A stretch of DNA of 64,000 bases from Niabella agricola (GTDB lineage Bacteria; Bacteroidota; Bacteroidia; Chitinophagales; Chitinophagaceae), in assembly GCF_021538615.1 (NCBI RefSeq), contig NZ_JAJHIZ010000003.1:1550001-1614000 (forward strand). Reading direction: 5' to 3'. A model generated the notes under the pieces. That model was given only the letters and a program-made list of their open reading frames with translations, was not told where the DNA came from and did not search any database. Each line of letters starts with the position of its first letter. Within the stretch, counting starts at the first letter, position 1. Shown piece after piece: positions 14,879-21,989 of this stretch. A program made the translations under genes and the position numbers.

Positions 14879-16123
14879 TCATTTTTTAACTACGGCTACC
14901 ACTTTAGAATAGCTGCTGTGACCATCAGCGTCTACCTGCTCGATGCGTATAAAGGCTTTTTGCGATCCTTCCACCGGAGCAATTTCTGCACTGTTCCGGC
15001 GGCAGGATACAGCCGCCATTCCAATCAGTACATAGCACAATACTGCCGACATAAATATCTTCCGGTTTCTGCGGGCTCCGCCAAAACCCAGGGCTGCAGC
15101 CGCCAATACAGAAAGCCCCAGTAACACCATATTTCCATTTTTATCGGTACGCACAGAGTAGGTGGTAGCACCGGTAAATACGGCACCCGCATGTTTTGAT
15201 TTTATAGTGGCTATGGTTTGAAAATCGGTTCCATTTCCGGAAGCCTGGATATTGAAATGATCGTTGTTATTTTCCTCAAGGGTCGTAAAATTTACGAGCA
15301 GGTCATCGTCGGTTGCAATAGCAGTAACAGACTCAAACTGTACAGGCAGCACCAACAGTACGGTCACTTCTACCCGGCCGTTACCACCGCTCAAAGCAGG
15401 CCTGTTATTACCACCATTTGTGCGAAAGCCACCGCCACCGCCACCGCCGGGCGCATCACCTGCAGTTGCATCAAGATTGGTGTTTGCTCCTTCGCCGCCA
15501 TTTCCTCCAAGATCGTTACCATTCCCCGGACCTCGTCCCAGGCTATTGGCGCCGCTTCCTCCACTACCCGCAGCACCGCCGCCACCGCCGCCATACCCGC
15601 CAACACTGCTGTTGCCGTCGGCTCCGTTACCACCGCCGAAATTAATAATACCGGTGGCACCGTTTACAGACCAGAACGAGGTTTCACCTGCAGTTTGTGC
15701 AACACCACCGCTACCGGCGGTGCTGTTGTTACTACCAGAGCTGCCCCCGTTTGCTGTAATGATAAAAGCAGGCGATATGTTGAAAGATGAAGCACTTCCG
15801 TTGGTACCGGATACACCTCCTCCACCAACATTGACGGTATAAGTGCCGGGTTGCAGGGTTACATTTACCTGTGAATAAGCGCCGCCGCCACCACCGCCCC
15901 CGGCGGTACTGTTACCACTGGCACGGGTTCCGCCACCGCCGCCGGCGCCCCAAACTTTAATGGTCACTTTGTTAGCCTGGCCGGCCGGTACAATAAACGA
16001 TTGTGCAGTATTTGTATAATAATACGTTGTTGTTTGTGCAGATACGGTCGAAAACAATAAAAGTAATAACATGCTTACAAGAGCGCACCGGATGCGCATC
16101 CTGCTAAAAAAAGATAATTTCAT
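14879..16123 (-). CDS. Family member A: glycine-rich exported protein with constant C-terminal module
   Basis: 414 residues. Signal peptide at 1-29 (LLLLLFSTVSAQ), then a glycine-rich beta domain of about 220 residues (IKVWGAGGGGG, LQPGTYTVNVGGGG) typical of Gly_rich surface domains. A short WxT-like beta module follows (VQFESVTAIATDDDLLVNFT, EENNNDHFNIQASGNGTDF). The shared C-terminus comprises a hydrophobic helix (MVLLGLSVLAAAALGFGG), a basic stop (ARRNRK), a second hydrophobic stretch ending AAVSC with Cys374, and a 41-residue tail (AFIRIEQVDADG, YSKVVAVV). It is the most diverged of the four paralogues. Function unknown; surface adhesin or matrix component is a guess based on the head. 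Confidence 0.8.
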   Translation of the reverse strand: MKLSFFSRMRIRCALVSMLLLLLFSTVSAQTTTYYYTNTAQSFIVPAGQANKVTIKVWGAGGGGGTRASGNSTAGGGGGGGAYSQVNVTLQPGTYTVNVGGGGVSGTNGSASSFNISPAFIITANGGSSGSNNSTAGSGGVAQTAGETSFWSVNGATGIINFGGGNGADGNSSVGGYGGGGGGAAGSGGSGANSLGRGPGNGNDLGGNGGEGANTNLDATAGDAPGGGGGGGFRTNGGNNRPALSGGNGRVEVTVLLVLPVQFESVTAIATDDDLLVNFTTLEENNNDHFNIQASGNGTDFQTIATIKSKHAGAVFTGATTYSVRTDKNGNMVLLGLSVLAAAALGFGGARRNRKIFMSAVLCYVLIGMAAVSCRRNSAEIAPVEGSQKAFIRIEQVDADGHSSYSKVVAVVKK

Positions 16124-16409
16124 TTTGTGCAGTTTTAAGAATTAAATAAATCGGTTGTTGGTGATAACGGTAAAGCAAAAGATGATTCAAAAAATTCCGG
16201 CGCACGCAAAGGGCCTTAGAAATAGTTTTGAGTGGCTGTGTCAGATGCTACAGAACTATTCTCCACAGATTTTGCCATGGATGGTAGATTCCTGTATGTC
16301 TAATATATCGGAGGTTTCAGAGGAGCCCGGGATCCGCAGTGGATCACCATTGTTAGTTTAAAGGAGTATCAGTCGTTTGTTTTCGAGTGTACCGATGCCG
16401 GCAAAAGTA
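16124..16409 (-). promoter_or_regulatory. Promoter and long leader of family member A
   Basis: A minus-strand -7 box TACTTTTG lies at 16402-16409, about 280 nt before the ATG. The leader carries elements shared with B and C: the plus-strand words TTCAAAAAAT (16186-16195) and ATAGTTTTGAGTGG (16222-16235), and TGTGCAGTTTTA-GAATTAA beside the start codon. The plus frame 16155-16361 here is not protein-like. Confidence 0.55.
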
Positions 16410-16490
16410 CAGGATCACGAATCCCTTGCCAATACCGCCAATGGGGTATTTTTAAATAAGGGACCGTCGCTCTTGTCCGGCCAACGGTAA

Positions 16491-16530
16491 TTAAAAAAGC
16501 TGCATCTCTTTTGAGAAGCAGCTTTTTTAA
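16491..16530. terminator. Bidirectional terminator-like hairpin between A and B
   Basis: TAAAAAAGCTGCATCTC pairs with GAGAAGCAGCTTTTTTA over 17 positions with one mismatch and a 3-nt loop. A-run and T-run flank it on either side, so it can act on both strands. No gene ends immediately beside it: B ends at 16662 and has its own hairpin at 16611-16637, so this is a second barrier upstream of A. Confidence 0.75.
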
Positions 16531-16610
16531 CGCCAGCAATAGATTTTACCGAGCAAGCCAGATTTATTTACAAAAGATATTTGTGCGGGTAAGAAGCCGG
16601 GCACGGTTCA

Positions 16611-16637
16611 TAAAGGGCTGCCCTTTCAGACAGCCCC
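16611..16637 (-). terminator. Terminator-like hairpin downstream of family member B
   Basis: GGGCTG ... CAGCCC stem within AAAGGGCTGCCCTTTCAGAC, 25-51 nt after the B stop codon on the minus strand. The same hairpin with a few substitutions and a stronger T-run follows gene D. Confidence 0.6.
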
Positions 16638-16661
16638 TGTCATCCCGGTTTTTACTGCACC

Positions 16662-18125
16662 TTAATCATTAACTACTGTTACTACTTTTGAATACTGCAC
16701 CGTTCCCGCCTGGTCATATTGAGCGATGCGAACAAAAATGGTCTGACCACGATTTACATCGACGTTCTTTCCGTCTTTTAAACAAGATGCAGCAGCTACT
16801 ACAATAACGGCTATTGCGAGCACTTTTGCCCATCTGGATCTTACCAATGTTAGCAGGAACAGGCCACCCAGGCCAATCGCCGCCAACGACGCCGGGATGC
16901 CTAATGCCAGGCTGTAATCGATGGGCAGGTCAGAGTTACCGTCTACACCTTTTGAATTCAATTTGCCGATAGCCGTCCAGTTCTTTCCGTCATTGGAAGC
17001 TTCCACTACAAATTCCTTATTATTCTTTTCGGTGAGCGTTCTCCAGTTTACCACGATCTGATCGTTTTTCCGGCTGGCCGCAACATTGTCAATTGCTGCA
17101 GACAGCGGGCTGCAGGTATTAACCGCCGGAGTCACCAATCCAAAATCCACATTAGTAGTAGTACCTCCATTGGTAATACTAATATTACGTACCACCACAT
17201 AAAGATCTTTTATCCGGTCCGGGTTATTGGTGGAATAAGGTGCCGGATAGATGGCGGGCAGGTAAATATGCGTGGCGTCATTGGTGCCGCTAGCCGAACT
17301 GAAAGTGATTGAACTGTTGGAAGCTCCCTGGACAACGGTATACAGCGTGGCGCCGCCATCGTAGATCTTGGTATCGGTAGCAGAGTATCCCGCAATTCCA
17401 TCAGTTTCCTGATATACATCAAAAGCGAAGTTGATGGAGTTACCGATGCCATTGGCAGTAACGGTAAAATTCAGAATGTTGGGGTCAGGATTTCCACAAC
17501 CGATCAAGGCAACCACCGAAGGATCTGCAGCCGAAAAAACAAAGCCAGGTAAAGCACATGCTACAATTTTACCATTGTTATCCTGTGCAGACCAGGAGTC
17601 TCCTTTAAACAGCGGAGGTGCAGAAGTATTGCAGGCTCCGGGCAAATCAATTACGATGTTCTGAAATGTAAAATGAGTTGCAGTTGAATTCGGAACCGGG
17701 GTTTTACTAAATGTAATCCCATCGGATGCGTCCAATACGTTTACGGTATTATCTGGCCCATAAACACTCGACAACACGGGATTCGAAACATTGGTATAAT
17801 CCAATGCCAATGTAAATAAGGCGTTTCCCAGTATATTGGCACTGGTGGGCGCCTGGTTACTATACGTCCAGTTTTGACCATTATGATACCCCGTCGCCGT
17901 CCATACGTGTATATAGGTAAATTTATTACCACCGTTCACATCAATATCCACCGAAAGTGTTAGTGTTGTCCGGCAATAGGGCTGCCCGTTAATCATTACG
18001 TTTGATGTACCCTGAACTTGTATCAATGGGCTTACAAAAGTACAGGGAGCAGCCATAGCGCTCTGTTGACTTAATAAAATAAGAGAAAAGAGTGTTGCAG
18101 TTAAAATTAAAAACCGAGTTTTCAT
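16662..18125 (-). CDS. Family member B: exported protein with constant C-terminal module
   Basis: 487 residues. Signal peptide (about 1-25, LILLSQQSAMA), then a head of about 330 residues, Asn/Thr/Ser-rich and all-beta, with several Cys (YCRTTLTLSVDIDVNGGN, GCGNPDPNILNFTVTANG). The WxT module (IVVNWRTLTEKNNKEFVVEA, NDGKNWTAIGKLNSKG) precedes the shared end: helix 1 LGIPASLAAIGLGGLFLL, basic RSRWAK, helix 2 ending AAASC with Cys448, and a 40-residue tail (IFVRIAQYDQAG, YSKVVTVV). The head matches nothing I recognise. Its 5' leader and 3' flank resemble those of its neighbours, pointing to tandem duplication with head replacement. Confidence 0.8.
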   Translation of the reverse strand: MKTRFLILTATLFSLILLSQQSAMAAPCTFVSPLIQVQGTSNVMINGQPYCRTTLTLSVDIDVNGGNKFTYIHVWTATGYHNGQNWTYSNQAPTSANILGNALFTLALDYTNVSNPVLSSVYGPDNTVNVLDASDGITFSKTPVPNSTATHFTFQNIVIDLPGACNTSAPPLFKGDSWSAQDNNGKIVACALPGFVFSAADPSVVALIGCGNPDPNILNFTVTANGIGNSINFAFDVYQETDGIAGYSATDTKIYDGGATLYTVVQGASNSSITFSSASGTNDATHIYLPAIYPAPYSTNNPDRIKDLYVVVRNISITNGGTTTNVDFGLVTPAVNTCSPLSAAIDNVAASRKNDQIVVNWRTLTEKNNKEFVVEASNDGKNWTAIGKLNSKGVDGNSDLPIDYSLALGIPASLAAIGLGGLFLLTLVRSRWAKVLAIAVIVVAAASCLKDGKNVDVNRGQTIFVRIAQYDQAGTVQYSKVVTVVND

Positions 18126-18433
18126 CGTTGTGCAGTTTTAGAATTAAAAAAATAGAAACCAGTTACCAAAATGACATTTGGTAGAGAGGGATGGGATATT
18201 CAAAAAATGTCGGATACGTACGGGGTATCGCAATAGTTTTGAGTGGGGTTAGCGGCGTATATCTATGTCTGTCATTCCGGCCGGAATGTAGACAAAAATA
18301 GCAGCCGTATAACCATACGGTTTGCTTTCACGGTTCGCGGTAACATCCGCAACGGATGTTGCAAATTGGTTTGGAAGGTATGGGTGAGGATGGATCAGCC
18401 CATCACAGGGAGCATTTATTCTGTACAAAATTA
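18126..18433 (-). promoter_or_regulatory. Promoter and long structured leader of family member B
   Basis: Minus-strand -7 box TAATTTTG at 18426-18433 gives a leader of about 295 nt. It contains TTCAAAAAAT (18199-18208, plus strand), ATAGTTTTGAGTGG (18233-18246), a GATAC..GTATC pairing between them, the palindrome CATTCCGG-CCGGAATG (18273-18288), and a hairpin ACATCCG-CAA-CGGATGT (18343-18359) whose counterpart before gene C shows a compensatory change. Confidence 0.6.
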
Positions 18434-18805
18434 CTACCCTCCCGGCTCCTGGAAAATCCCTGAAAATAGGGATGCCATTGCATAGACAGAAAAAATTAAA
18501 AATAACAGACAGTCAAGGCCCGGCTTCGGATTATTTGTGCGAAACCATCGTTTTCTGGTTACACGGTGCCCTCATTAAGAACGAAGCTCATACCTCGCCT
18601 GGTCTTCTGCTTCACACAACACCCACATACGAGTACTGTCCGCAATTTTTCAATTTCAAATCTACTTATATATATGCCCAGTTTTATATAAATTCGTTGA
18701 ACCTCCTTTTTTATTCGGCAAATGCGTTTTACAGGAAGACAAAAAAGGATGTTTAGCTACTATATCCCAATTGCAATAAACCCTTTAGGCTGTCGTTTTT
18801 ATGCC
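18434..18805. other. Intergenic remainder between the B promoter and the end of C
   Basis: About 370 bp without a recognisable gene. The plus frames 18472-18756 and 18722-18943 lack protein-like composition; the second overlaps the end of C. No clear terminator for C is visible. Confidence 0.4.
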
Positions 18806-19498
18806 TTAATTATACGTCACCTTTACGGCCTTCGAATAACCTATTGCACCATCTTTTTCATGCTGGGCAATCCGAACATATTCTGTTTTACCGGTTCCTG
18901 CTGTTGCCATCTGATCTTTTTTTCTACAAGCGCCGACTACTAAAACAACGGCAGCAATCATCAGCAACTTCGTTCTTCGGGAACGGGTAACGGTTAACAG
19001 CAACAACCCGCCCATACCAATTGCTGCAAAAGAAACCGGAAGCTTTAACTGCAGGCCATATTCCAGTGATTCGGCAGAACTTCCATTACTGCTTTTTGAT
19101 TGAATTGTACCCAGCGCCTCCCATTGCTGCCCGTCTGCAGACCCTTCCACTACAAACTCCTTACTGTTCTCCTCGGTAACCGTTTGCCAGGACACCATTA
19201 ATCTACCATTGGCAGCAGTTGCGGCTATCCGTCCAAACGCCGCACCCATTCTCAAATAATCAAGCACAGCTACCTCGTCATTATCATCCTTGATTGTTAC
19301 GTATTTTGTATACACCGGAATAGAGTCTTCGTTATCGTACACTTTTATTTCAAGCAATTTACTTCCGTTTGCAGCATACGTAATGTCAAGATCCCATATC
19401 AGATTGTCGTCTCCGGCATTGGGAATCGTATCGTTTTGAGCGGTACCTGTCAATGCAGCGAGCAGCCCAATAAAAAAACATAAAAATCTGAGTTTCAT
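18806..19498 (-). CDS. Family member C: short exported protein with constant C-terminal module
   Basis: 230 residues from MKLRFLCFFIGLLAALTGTA; the start at 19498 was preferred over 19519 because it begins the signal peptide and aligns with the shared CAT-TTTAAGCAGTTT leader. The head is only about 70 residues (LIWDLDITYAANGSKLLEI, VYTKYVTIKDDNDEV). Then come the WxT module (LMVSWQTVTEENSKEFVVEG, ADGQQWEALGTIQSK), helix 1 LPVSFAAIGMGGLLLL, RSRRTK, helix 2 ending VVGAC with Cys191, and a 40-residue tail (EYVRIAQHEKDG, YSKAVKV). It shows that the C-terminal module is the constant part and the head is optional. Function unknown. Confidence 0.8.
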   Translation of the reverse strand: MKLRFLCFFIGLLAALTGTAQNDTIPNAGDDNLIWDLDITYAANGSKLLEIKVYDNEDSIPVYTKYVTIKDDNDEVAVLDYLRMGAAFGRIAATAANGRLMVSWQTVTEENSKEFVVEGSADGQQWEALGTIQSKSSNGSSAESLEYGLQLKLPVSFAAIGMGGLLLLTVTRSRRTKLLMIAAVVLVVGACRKKDQMATAGTGKTEYVRIAQHEKDGAIGYSKAVKVTYN

Positions 19499-20144
19499 TT
19501 TAAGCAGTTTAAAAAACAAAAAAAGAGGTCTTCTCCAGAAACAACTTCTGGCAGCGAAGGCAAACTGGGTTCAAAAAATTTAGATACGAAGCAGTATCAA
19601 TAAGTTTTGAGTGGTATACAGACCACAGCATATAGGCACAGGAATGATAAACTGAGCGCTACATCACAGCATCTGTTATTTGTATTTATTCAAGGGAAGC
19701 AGTAACATTCGCAACGAATGTAACCGTTTGTTTGGAGGAAATGTAGCAATGATCAACATCCATCAATAAAGGTAATCCGCCCGAATCATCTCTCCGACTC
19801 TAAAAAACAAGGCCTCTTGTCCGTTTTATTTTAGATTACCGGCATGCAGCAAGATCCTTTGACTAAACATTGACGTAATGAATGAATTTTATATCACTGT
19901 ACATTCATATTGTTTGTAGCATATCCGCTGTCCGCCAGGCTATCAGACCAACCGTCTTTATCTCACAGCAGTCATTACCTAATCGTTTCTTACTTCAAAA
20001 ATAATCATATACAGATCGGATATTTATAAATTTCGATGAGTACCGGGCTTTGTTCGTCAGATATGTTTTGCAAACAGGTTAAAGCAGTAATAAAAAAAGG
20101 GCTGCCCCGTCGGACAGCCCCGTCATCCTGGTTTTTACTACACC
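19499..20144 (-). promoter_or_regulatory. Leader of family member C and spacer to D
   Basis: The plus-strand words TTCAAAAAAT (19570-19579) and AAGTTTTGAGTGG (19602-19614) repeat those before A and B, with GATAC..GTATC between them. A hairpin ACATTCG-CAA-CGAATGT (19705-19721) matches the B hairpin apart from one exchanged base pair. I see no clean TAnnTTTG box. The rest of the 646 bp is AT-rich without a gene, apart from the D terminator at its end. Confidence 0.5.
20094..20125 (-). terminator. Terminator downstream of family member D
   Basis: GGGGCTGTCC / GGGCAGCCC stem on the minus strand, followed by a T-run (AAAAAAA on the plus strand, 20094-20100). It is nearly identical to the hairpin after B, and similarity extends through the last codons of both genes. 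Confidence 0.75.
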
Positions 20145-20951
20145 TTATTCCTGAATAACTTTTACTACTTTCGAATAGCTTACAGCGCCATCCTTATCAT
20201 ATTGAGCAATACGTACAAAGGCGGTTTGATTTTTCCCTTCCAGGACTTGTTCGTTTTTTGCACAGGCTCCCGCTGCAATAACAATCGCAAGGATCATGAA
20301 AGCTTTCATCCACCTGGATCTTGTTACAGTCAACAGCAATAAGCCACCCAGACCAATCGCGGCAAATGAAGCCGGTAGACTCAGCAGCAAGCTGTAATCC
20401 AATGGCTGCGCGGAGTTTCCATCGATGCCTTTAGATTCCAACTTACCAAGCGCGGTCCACACCTGGCCATCTGCAGACCCTTCTACAACAAATTCTTTGT
20501 TATTTTCCTCACTTCCGGTTCGCCAGTTCACCTGCAGCTTCCCTCCTGTTATCGCGGCGGTTACGCTTTCAAACTGAACGCCCAGTGGTACATCTCCGGG
20601 TACTACAATATCATCGCCGCATCTGGCTGCGCCACAATTCCCGGTCCATCTCACAAATACAGCCTTCAGCTTGGAAAGGCCGCCGCTGCAGGCTACCCCG
20701 GTCATCTGTGCAGAGCCTGGCCCGCCTGGGTATTTCAAACAATCGGAACTTGCAACCAGGTTTCCGTCGCAATAAATATATACCTGTAACGATTTGTTAC
20801 CATCTGTCAGGTAGCTGTAGTCAAGCTGCCAGGTTTGACCGTCATTACTGGGATTAGAAAAGATAGCGCGGGTAATTTGAATACAATTTTGAGCATTGGC
20901 AAAGCCTGCAATAAAAAGCGCTATTAAAGGGAGTAAAAACCGTTTTTTCAT
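20145..20951 (-). CDS. Family member D: exported protein with constant C-terminal module
   Basis: 268 residues. Signal peptide 1-20 (LLPLIALFIAGFANAQ), then a Cys-containing beta head of about 110 residues (DGQTWQLDYSYLTDGNKSL, VRWTGNCGAARCGDD). The WxT module (VQFESVTAAITGGKLQVNW, EENNKEFVVEGSADGQVW) leads to helix 1 LPASFAAIGLGGLLLL, RSRWMK, helix 2 ending AAGAC with Cys230, and a 39-residue tail (AFVRIAQYDKDG, YSKVVKV). The constant part is closest to B and C. The head length and W-x-L-D-Y words echo C (IWDLDITYAANGSK), suggesting a common head ancestor for C and D. Function unknown. Confidence 0.8.
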   Translation of the reverse strand: MKKRFLLPLIALFIAGFANAQNCIQITRAIFSNPSNDGQTWQLDYSYLTDGNKSLQVYIYCDGNLVASSDCLKYPGGPGSAQMTGVACSGGLSKLKAVFVRWTGNCGAARCGDDIVVPGDVPLGVQFESVTAAITGGKLQVNWRTGSEENNKEFVVEGSADGQVWTALGKLESKGIDGNSAQPLDYSLLLSLPASFAAIGLGGLLLLTVTRSRWMKAFMILAIVIAAGACAKNEQVLEGKNQTAFVRIAQYDKDGAVSYSKVVKVIQE

Positions 20952-21497: not shown

Positions 21498-21989
21498 TTA
21501 GTTTTTTTGAACAAAAATGTTTACGGGTCCTTTAACAGTCCCGTCTGCCATATTGCTTCTTGCAATGATCAGCGTATACGTTCCTTTTTTTCCGGTTTTA
21601 TATTGCATAGTAAGTCCAAAAGGTCCATCCGTTTTTCCATCGGGCATTTCAATCTGGCTGATCCGGACATTCCGCTCATACCCCTCCGGTTTCAACTGTA
21701 CCGCTAAATGTTGTGTACCGGTTACCGGAATCCGTATATGTATTTGCTGATACTCTTTCTGTATATCCGCATGCAGCGTATCCCTGTTCCCGGAAGACGC
21801 TAATACCATAATGGAATCACCCGATTCCGGACTGCTCGGCGGCAGCGTATCCTTAGCGGGCGGATGAAATAAGGTATCGGGGTGTTGCCCGCTCATGGTA
21901 TCATCCTGTACTTGCTTCGGATCAGCCACATGGCCGCAGGCATACAGGCACCATAAAAAAAAAGAAAGGTATCGGGGTGTTCTTAGCAT
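21498..21989 (-). CDS. Small lipoprotein of unknown function
   Basis: 163 residues. The N-terminus MLRTPRYLSFFLWCLYACG carries a lipobox L-Y-A-C with Cys18. A Pro/Asp/Ser-rich linker of about 45 residues follows, then one beta domain (HIRIPVTGTQHLAVQLKPEG, GPFGLTMQYKTGKKGTYTLI, NIFVQKN). The composition fits an envelope lipoprotein with a small beta-sandwich of unknown role. It is divergent from the ybjQ-type gene: a minus-strand TATTTTTG box (22014-22021) lies 24 nt before its ATG, inside the 43-bp gap between the two start codons, so the two promoters must overlap. Confidence 0.7.
   Translation of the reverse strand: MLRTPRYLSFFLWCLYACGHVADPKQVQDDTMSGQHPDTLFHPPAKDTLPPSSPESGDSIMVLASSGNRDTLHADIQKEYQQIHIRIPVTGTQHLAVQLKPEGYERNVRISQIEMPDGKTDGPFGLTMQYKTGKKGTYTLIIARSNMADGTVKGPVNIFVQKN

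Follow-up and report, generated by a model that had tools for sequence, protein, structure and literature searches.

A C-terminal module of Niabella proteins in which a membrane hairpin with an internal lipobox interrupts a beta-domain: a candidate built-in lipid anchor

The window analysed here is a stretch of 64,000 nucleotides of the Niabella agricola genome (RefSeq assembly GCF_021538615.1, contig NZ_JAJHIZ010000003.1, positions 1,550,001 to 1,614,000 of the forward strand), and all coordinates of genes A to D refer to it. Our subject is the C-terminal module shared by the products of these four tandem genes, which an initial annotation of the window had singled out. All four were confirmed as open reading frames (ORFs), located on the minus strand and encoding proteins of 414, 487, 237 and 268 amino acids (aa), respectively. 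Their C-terminal modules, of about 147 residues, align over the full length; identity to the module of D is 38-57%, and 28 columns are invariant, including E27, N29, F33, C109, R126, Q129, G134 and YSK.

In each protein the module is composed of the first part of a beta-domain that we term FN3-like, a membrane hairpin (a first transmembrane segment, TM1, a basic loop, and a second transmembrane segment, TM2, that runs to a lipobox), and the lipobox Cys followed by the last strands of the domain. Gene A (14879..16123) encodes a signal peptide, a glycine-rich head (PF21722) and the module, whose three parts lie at 15152..15349, 15005..15151 and, from Cys374, 14882..15004. Gene B (16662..18125) encodes a signal peptide, a head of about 330 residues without a Pfam match over the cut-off, and a module with its parts at 16908..17102, 16785..16907 and 16665..16784. 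Gene C (18806..19519), the start codon of which is uncertain (an ATG lies 7 codons in), has a short head related to that of D and the module at 19052..19255, 18929..19051 and 18809..18928. Gene D (20145..20951) combines its short, C-related head with module parts at 20391..20588, 20265..20390 and 20148..20264. The heads had initially been described as unrelated; this holds for A and B, which at E 0.01 match none of the genome's 19 other module-protein heads, but not for C and D, whose homology is shown by 36% identity over 66 aa (E 1e-7). The four modules nearest to that of A (36-39%) all lie outside the array, and it is no closer to those of B-D than to dispersed copies.

The anatomy of the module was examined in 76 distinct copies collected from loci, each with a profile span of more than 125 positions. 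A beta part is followed by TM1, the basic loop and TM2, which closes with a lipobox, and then by a tail 38-42 residues long; the beta part has the pattern LPVxF...W.T..E.N...F.IE.S.DG...I....SK....S....Y, and the tail carries RIxQVDxDGxxxYSKVV. Invariant over 24 aligned modules are E31, S42, G45, Y69 and the Cys, together with a single R and a single S in the tail. In 75 of the 76 modules the lipobox Cys is kept, at a distance of 38-42 residues from the C-terminus, and a lipobox regular expression that we take to be the form of PROSITE PS00013 was matched by 71 of the 76. The one module lacking the Cys (L104) has lost other conserved residues too and is probably a decaying copy. The second residue after the Cys is K in 71 of 75 modules and R in the other four. 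All 75 have two hydrophobic stretches, TM1 with a mean hydropathy of 2.2 (17-residue window), and between them a loop with at least two K/R (mean 3.5) and hardly any acids (mean 0.01). Such a basic, nearly acid-free loop should be cytoplasmic, which would orient TM2 like a signal peptide. What had been annotated as a second hydrophobic stretch is better described as a lipoprotein-type signal: a Cys after a hydrophobic h-region and a basic n-region, as in Sec/signal peptidase II substrates, but internal rather than N-terminal.

The ratio of nonsynonymous to synonymous substitution rates (dN/dS) was estimated for two ortholog pairs, D versus L046 and B versus L048. It was 0.02 and 0.02 for the hairpin, 0.22 and 0.05 for the tail, and 0.06 and 0.07 for the N-terminal part, with few changes per part, the D tail included. 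Values of this size do not suggest a relic in any of the three parts.

An unbroken form of the same domain was found in other Bacteroidota, where the pattern '...Y.F.D..P..G.NYYRLKQVDxDG...YS' is followed by a tail resembling those of type IX secretion system (T9SS) cargo. This arrangement was seen in nine of nine loci (L052-L060) and in 22 of 27 further ones (L064-L090), the 22 being those that matched the pattern; one second copy ends at a locus edge. The T9SS tail was scored formally on L055 alone (TIGR04183, 42 bits against a cut-off of 23 bits). A hidden Markov model (HMM) of the unbroken domain was built from 26 domains of other genera out of 36 loci, the pattern having missed ten, and was run on 77 sequences: 75 modules and two halves from the two-gene version described below. 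The N-terminal parts matched HMM positions 1 to about 60, all 77 above 10 bits, and the tails after the Cys matched positions of about 70-95 out of 96, 72 of the 77 above 10 bits; among 1500 shuffled tails the maximum was 8.5 bits and none exceeded 10. In the alignment the hairpin stands in place of the loop between 'Y.F' and 'YYRxxQxD' of the unbroken domain. Since both the N-terminal part and the tail match one domain model, the hairpin sits within a loop of a single domain, and the YSKVV tail, initially listed as an element of its own, closes the beta-domain to which the WxT part belongs. No Pfam, NCBIfam or PDB sequence match over threshold was obtained for the module or the unbroken domain; the unbroken domain gave sub-threshold Pfam and PDB matches only, several of them to beta-sandwich families.

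A search of the window's genome (6.26 Mb) with a profile built from A-D returned 20 module copies, matching over nearly full length at E 2e-25 or better, of which the A-D array makes up four; two further matches (E 0.17 and 0.26) were left out of the count. The scores of A-D themselves (207-252 bits) are circular, the model having been built from them, and those of the other 16 copies are not. By eye, a signal-peptide-like segment lies near the start of 19 of the 20 proteins, the start of the remaining one (L168) being unclear. Heads over Pfam cut-offs include three of RCC1 type, NHL, DUF285, an M43 peptidase with GEVED, a polysaccharide lyase, a PMP/beta-helix repeat, LamG and the glycine-rich one; one other has Ig/fn3 matches below the cut-off, and the remaining heads have no Pfam match over it. 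Of the 17 genomes of the genus, 15 carry the module, with 2-57 matches each at E<=1e-10. The highest count, 57, was seen in a genome (G153) with a completeness of 83% and a contamination of 5%. Among 147 genomes of the family, searched with at most 26 candidates scored per genome, 88 had some module match; among the matches listed, those of full length were confined to this genus, and those outside it covered the first part of the domain only. A hairpin-and-tail profile matched four of 395 genomes of the phylum (at most 13 candidates scored in each): two of this genus, G008, which carries the two-gene version, and G488, whose match spans the tail only. This part of the initial reading, one constant end on many heads and often in tandem, is supported.

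The nearest named records are Niabella loci (L046-L051; 36-91% identical). In three orthologous arrays (L046-L048), seven of the eight module genes match a single window gene (A, B or D) in both head and module, and the A-D array is judged from this comparison to be old. Head exchange had been suggested for the array; frequent exchange within it is not supported by these seven genes. In the eighth (L048:3426-4283) a D-type head (52%) is joined to a module nearer to that of B (58%) than to that of D (50%), which fits head exchange or module conversion. Exchange or conversion is better supported in an array of six tandem module genes in N. ginsengisoli (L049, also L161), the modules of which are 63-96% identical. 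The heads there form three groups with no detectable similarity to one another, plus one gene with just 46 residues before the module, and module identity reaches 84% between genes whose heads have nothing detectable in common; the heads of genes 3 and 6 are shared (47%), yet module 3 has 79% identity to module 4 and only 68% to module 6. Gene conversion of the module, or head exchange, would explain this pattern. Just upstream of gene D and on the same strand, a small predicted lipoprotein is encoded at window positions 21498-21989 (-); it begins MLRTPRYLSFFLWCLYACGHVADPK.

The distribution of the T9SS was compared with that of the module. SprA (TIGR04189) was found in none of the 17 genomes of the genus, and the same search was positive in all four comparison genomes. 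In a survey of Chitinophagaceae SprA was present in 233 of 244 genomes (232 over the cut-off) and in 100 of 101 genera; the sole genus without it is the window's own, negative in all five genomes sampled. Four of the other six SprA-negative genomes are less than 75% complete. Two genomes from other genera (G116 and G610) are near-complete and gave no SprA match, and SprA is present in their congeners. T9SS sorting tails (TIGR04183) were absent from all three Niabella genomes tested and gave 46, 56, 117 and at least 150 matches in four other genomes, 150 being the number scored in the last of these. Neither mark of T9SS cargo, a C-terminal sorting domain and SprA in the same genome, is thus found in Niabella, and the T9SS seems to have been lost from the genus.

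Proteins with the M43 peptidase head allow the two kinds of C-terminal end to be compared on one head. Scoring of 8000 candidates gave 507 such relatives. Of the best 120, 55 carry the module in full, one (P0057) is a fragment ending in the domain, and 64 are without the module; the T9SS tail PF18962 occurs in none of the 55 versus 46 of the 64. All 55 hairpin proteins have a Cys 36-43 residues from the end, in 41 of them within a match to the lipobox expression; not all are labelled Niabella, a few being labelled Chitinophagaceae bacterium. In a tree of 117 of these heads, made by a quick method and omitting P0062, P0084 and P0086 for length, 54 hairpin proteins and P0057 fall on one side of a branch with a Shimodaira-Hasegawa-like likelihood ratio support (SH-aLRT) of 96. 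A tree of the N-terminal part comprised 117 rows, namely 69 hairpin sequences with many heads, 46 T9SS versions and two Flavihumibacter-type ones; the M43 proteins contributed 11 of their 55 hairpin members and 20 of the 64 others. In this tree all 69 hairpin rows group in a single clade (100/99) and are separated from the T9SS versions that carry the same M43 head; it has only 72 columns, on which shared selection may act, and its bootstrap had not settled. Given a single clade across so many heads, the hairpin module seems to have a single origin and to have been put on many heads.

The same domain is divided between two genes in another genus, which we call Flavihumibacter-like because a small lipoprotein of its genome G008 shares 95% identity with one named Flavihumibacter sp. 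RY-1. In G008 (L159:4989-6217) a head gene stops just after the 'Y' of the domain's first part, and 26 bases further on begins a gene for a 64-aa lipoprotein, the mature part of which is the domain's last strands. The small lipoprotein gene was found in five of 15 genomes of this genus (two-gene loci L159 and L162-L166). In all five carriers this gene, for a lipoprotein of 63-64 aa, opens 26-27 bases downstream of the stop codon of a head gene cut off at the same site; in L165 the contig ends before the start of that head gene is reached. No clear transmembrane segment follows the signal peptide of the head chain, whose highest 17-residue hydropathy is 0.8-1.7. Its first part of the domain falls outside the hairpin clade, on a very long and weakly placed branch, and the same cut was therefore probably made twice, independently in this genus. 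The two-gene version suggests that a tether by lipid only can be enough.

One explanation for this anatomy, and the one we consider probable, is that the module is a built-in lipid anchor: Lgt and LspA would process the internal lipobox, the two resulting chains would stay together as one beta-domain, and the whole would replace a T9SS tail. The steps are drawn from what is established for Sec, signal peptidase I (SPI), Lgt and LspA. An N-terminal Sec/SPI signal would export the head and the first ~60 residues of the FN3-like beta-sandwich, until TM1, with its N-terminus outside, halts transfer and returns the chain to the cytoplasm. There the basic loop and TM2 would serve as n-region and h-region, respectively, of a second lipoprotein signal inside the protein. 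Lgt would attach a lipid to the Cys that closes TM2, ahead of which LspA would cleave. The predicted product consists of two chains, one with the head and most of the domain and the other a lipid-anchored tail of ~40 residues with the last strands, which would complete the same beta-sandwich and so tether the head non-covalently; we infer an outer-membrane location for it. In Niabella, the hairpin module would stand in for the T9SS sorting tail found behind this domain in relatives. The layout initially described lacked the internal lipobox, the split of the beta-domain and the T9SS replacement.

Several observations weigh against this proposal. After a cut by LspA both TM1 and TM2 would be left on the head chain and would keep it in the inner membrane in the absence of a further protease; no such protease was identified, and no obvious dedicated processing partner was recognised among the ORFs neighbouring the array, whose families were not searched. 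Four of the 75 Cys-bearing modules, and 14 of the 55 M43 hairpin proteins, all of the latter with the Cys, fail the lipobox expression, and the profile used to gather the loci itself includes the Cys. The designation FN3-like is a judgement from the sequence pattern, because no PDB chain or Pfam family matched above threshold. Two genomes of the genus (G155 and G158) have neither a module match nor SprA. The four sampled genomes of the Flavihumibacter-like genus, including the pair carriers G008 and G544, all have SprA, so that the split of the domain is not tied to loss of the T9SS. Finally, the strict surface-export signal C-x-K-[DE][DE] was found in only one of 75 modules; the K is at its position in 71, and the next three residues contain at least one acid in 57 and at least two in two. 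Presentation on the cell surface, as first suggested for these proteins, is plausible but unproven. The baseline for ordinary Niabella lipoproteins consists of four candidates, one of them doubtful, and is too small for the K after the Cys to be judged special.

An alternative, which we regard as unlikely, is that the hairpin is a plain two-helix anchor in the inner membrane, around which an uncut domain folds in the periplasm, the Cys being structural or lipidated without cleavage. The two hydrophobic stretches and basic loop of every module measured fit such an anchor, but it would have no need of a Cys so exactly placed in 75 of 76 modules, of the small residues before it or of the K or R second after it. 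The two-gene version speaks against it as well, with its ordinary N-terminal lipoprotein signal and a head chain that lacks a stretch as hydrophobic as TM1 (0.8-1.7 versus a mean of 2.2).

It is more doubtful still that the module is merely a divergent member of NCBIfam NF058595, the 'lipo-invert putative C-terminal anchoring domain'. At E<=1 it was hit by 10 of 24 modules, with a best value of 0.00036, against two for the next families, and a position-by-position reading of three matches puts the lipobox Cys at profile position 72 of 113. Every match seen, however, was below the 37-bit cut-off (13.1 bits for A, 20.8 for the best in the genome); only five of the 23 genome matches at E<=10 are modules and 18 are not, and all 14 control genomes match equally loosely. 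Over the cut-off there was no match in 147 genomes of the family or in 395 of the phylum, where at most 11 candidates were scored per genome and absence is weak evidence. The three alignments stop at the Cys or one residue after it (positions 72-73 of 113), so the tails may differ. The best match in the family genomes (L061, 27.6 bits) was examined and rejected, being an ordinary N-terminal lipoprotein signal and not a module.

Very improbable, finally, is a reading of TM1 as an exosortase, rhomboid or PEP-CTERM-like sorting signal ('PASFAAIGLGG...RSRW'), with cleavage at TM1 as the real event and the rest as by-product: a transmembrane segment followed by Arg does recall sorting tails, and the models for LPXTG, PID-CTERM and Synerg-CTERM matched weakly in two, one and one of 24 modules, but no motif common to the modules was seen before TM1, the PEP-CTERM layout of motif, transmembrane segment and Arg at the extreme C-terminus is contradicted by the second transmembrane segment, Cys and ~40 conserved residues that follow, TM2, Cys and tail are conserved and, in the two ortholog pairs, under purifying selection, and the two-gene version lacks TM1.

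If the module is indeed a built-in lipid anchor, a wider scenario can be drawn, for which we see even chances: a genus without the T9SS would have re-anchored its former T9SS cargo, the protein made two-chained by LspA would use its lipidated half as a natural non-covalent tag, and the Flavihumibacter-like genus would have made the same cut independently as two genes. T9SS cargo is thought to depend on a dedicated translocon, and here a whole genus would seemingly have exchanged that route for the universal lipoprotein machinery by means of one module on many proteins. Such a module would represent a novel route to a C-terminal lipid anchor as well as a natural split-domain pair, of possible use in protein engineering, and would account for a set of 'hypothetical' C-terminal ends. 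It raises the questions of whether a lipoprotein signal can work internally behind an SPI signal and whether LspA cleavage can turn one folded domain into a two-chain anchor.

Among known systems, the general plan has already been named by curators in NF058595 (invert_tail), which shares with the module a C-terminal hairpin and a lipobox-like Cys at profile position ~72 with ~41 positions after it; the modules differ in scoring below the cut-off and in a tail that is unaligned in the three matches checked. The initial view that no named system has this layout thus needs qualifying, although no match reaches the threshold of the named one, and the refuting condition set with that view, membership of a described family or a known sorting domain, applies by half. 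'Lipo-invert', 'NF058595' and 'internal lipobox' were not mentioned in the literature searched, nor was a domain split by its own lipoprotein signal in replacement of T9SS tails found described there. One fold is built from two polypeptides in the GAIN domain, in the donor strands of pilins and in SpyTag/SpyCatcher; to our knowledge none of these arises via an internal lipoprotein signal. The type A T9SS proteins of Bacteroidota (TIGR04183/PF18962) have the same beta-domain and the same M43 peptidase and GEVED head, but their domain is uninterrupted and followed by a T9SS tail. Ordinary lipoproteins carry their signal at the N-terminus, as do those of PMC12636315, which is not close to the module; in the module the signal lies inside the protein, close to the C-terminus, and is preceded by an SPI signal and a stop-transfer helix. 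With the surface lipoproteins of Bacteroidetes the module shares a lipobox and a K two residues after the Cys, but not the strict K-(D/E)2; the export signal in Capnocytophaga is given as C-x-K-(D/E)2, with this K numbered +3, in PMC5080379. In PMC11980579, MYXO-CTERM is a C-terminal sorting tag present in dozens per genome, with an invariant Cys thought to be lipidated, and is removed by MrtX. Its Cys precedes a single transmembrane segment and no lipobox is defined for it there, whereas the Cys of the module follows a second transmembrane segment, oriented as in ordinary lipoproteins, and has a conserved tail after it. As a C-terminal tag with an invariant Cys and many copies per genome, MYXO-CTERM with its myxosortase is nevertheless the nearest published relative in idea (PMC11980579).

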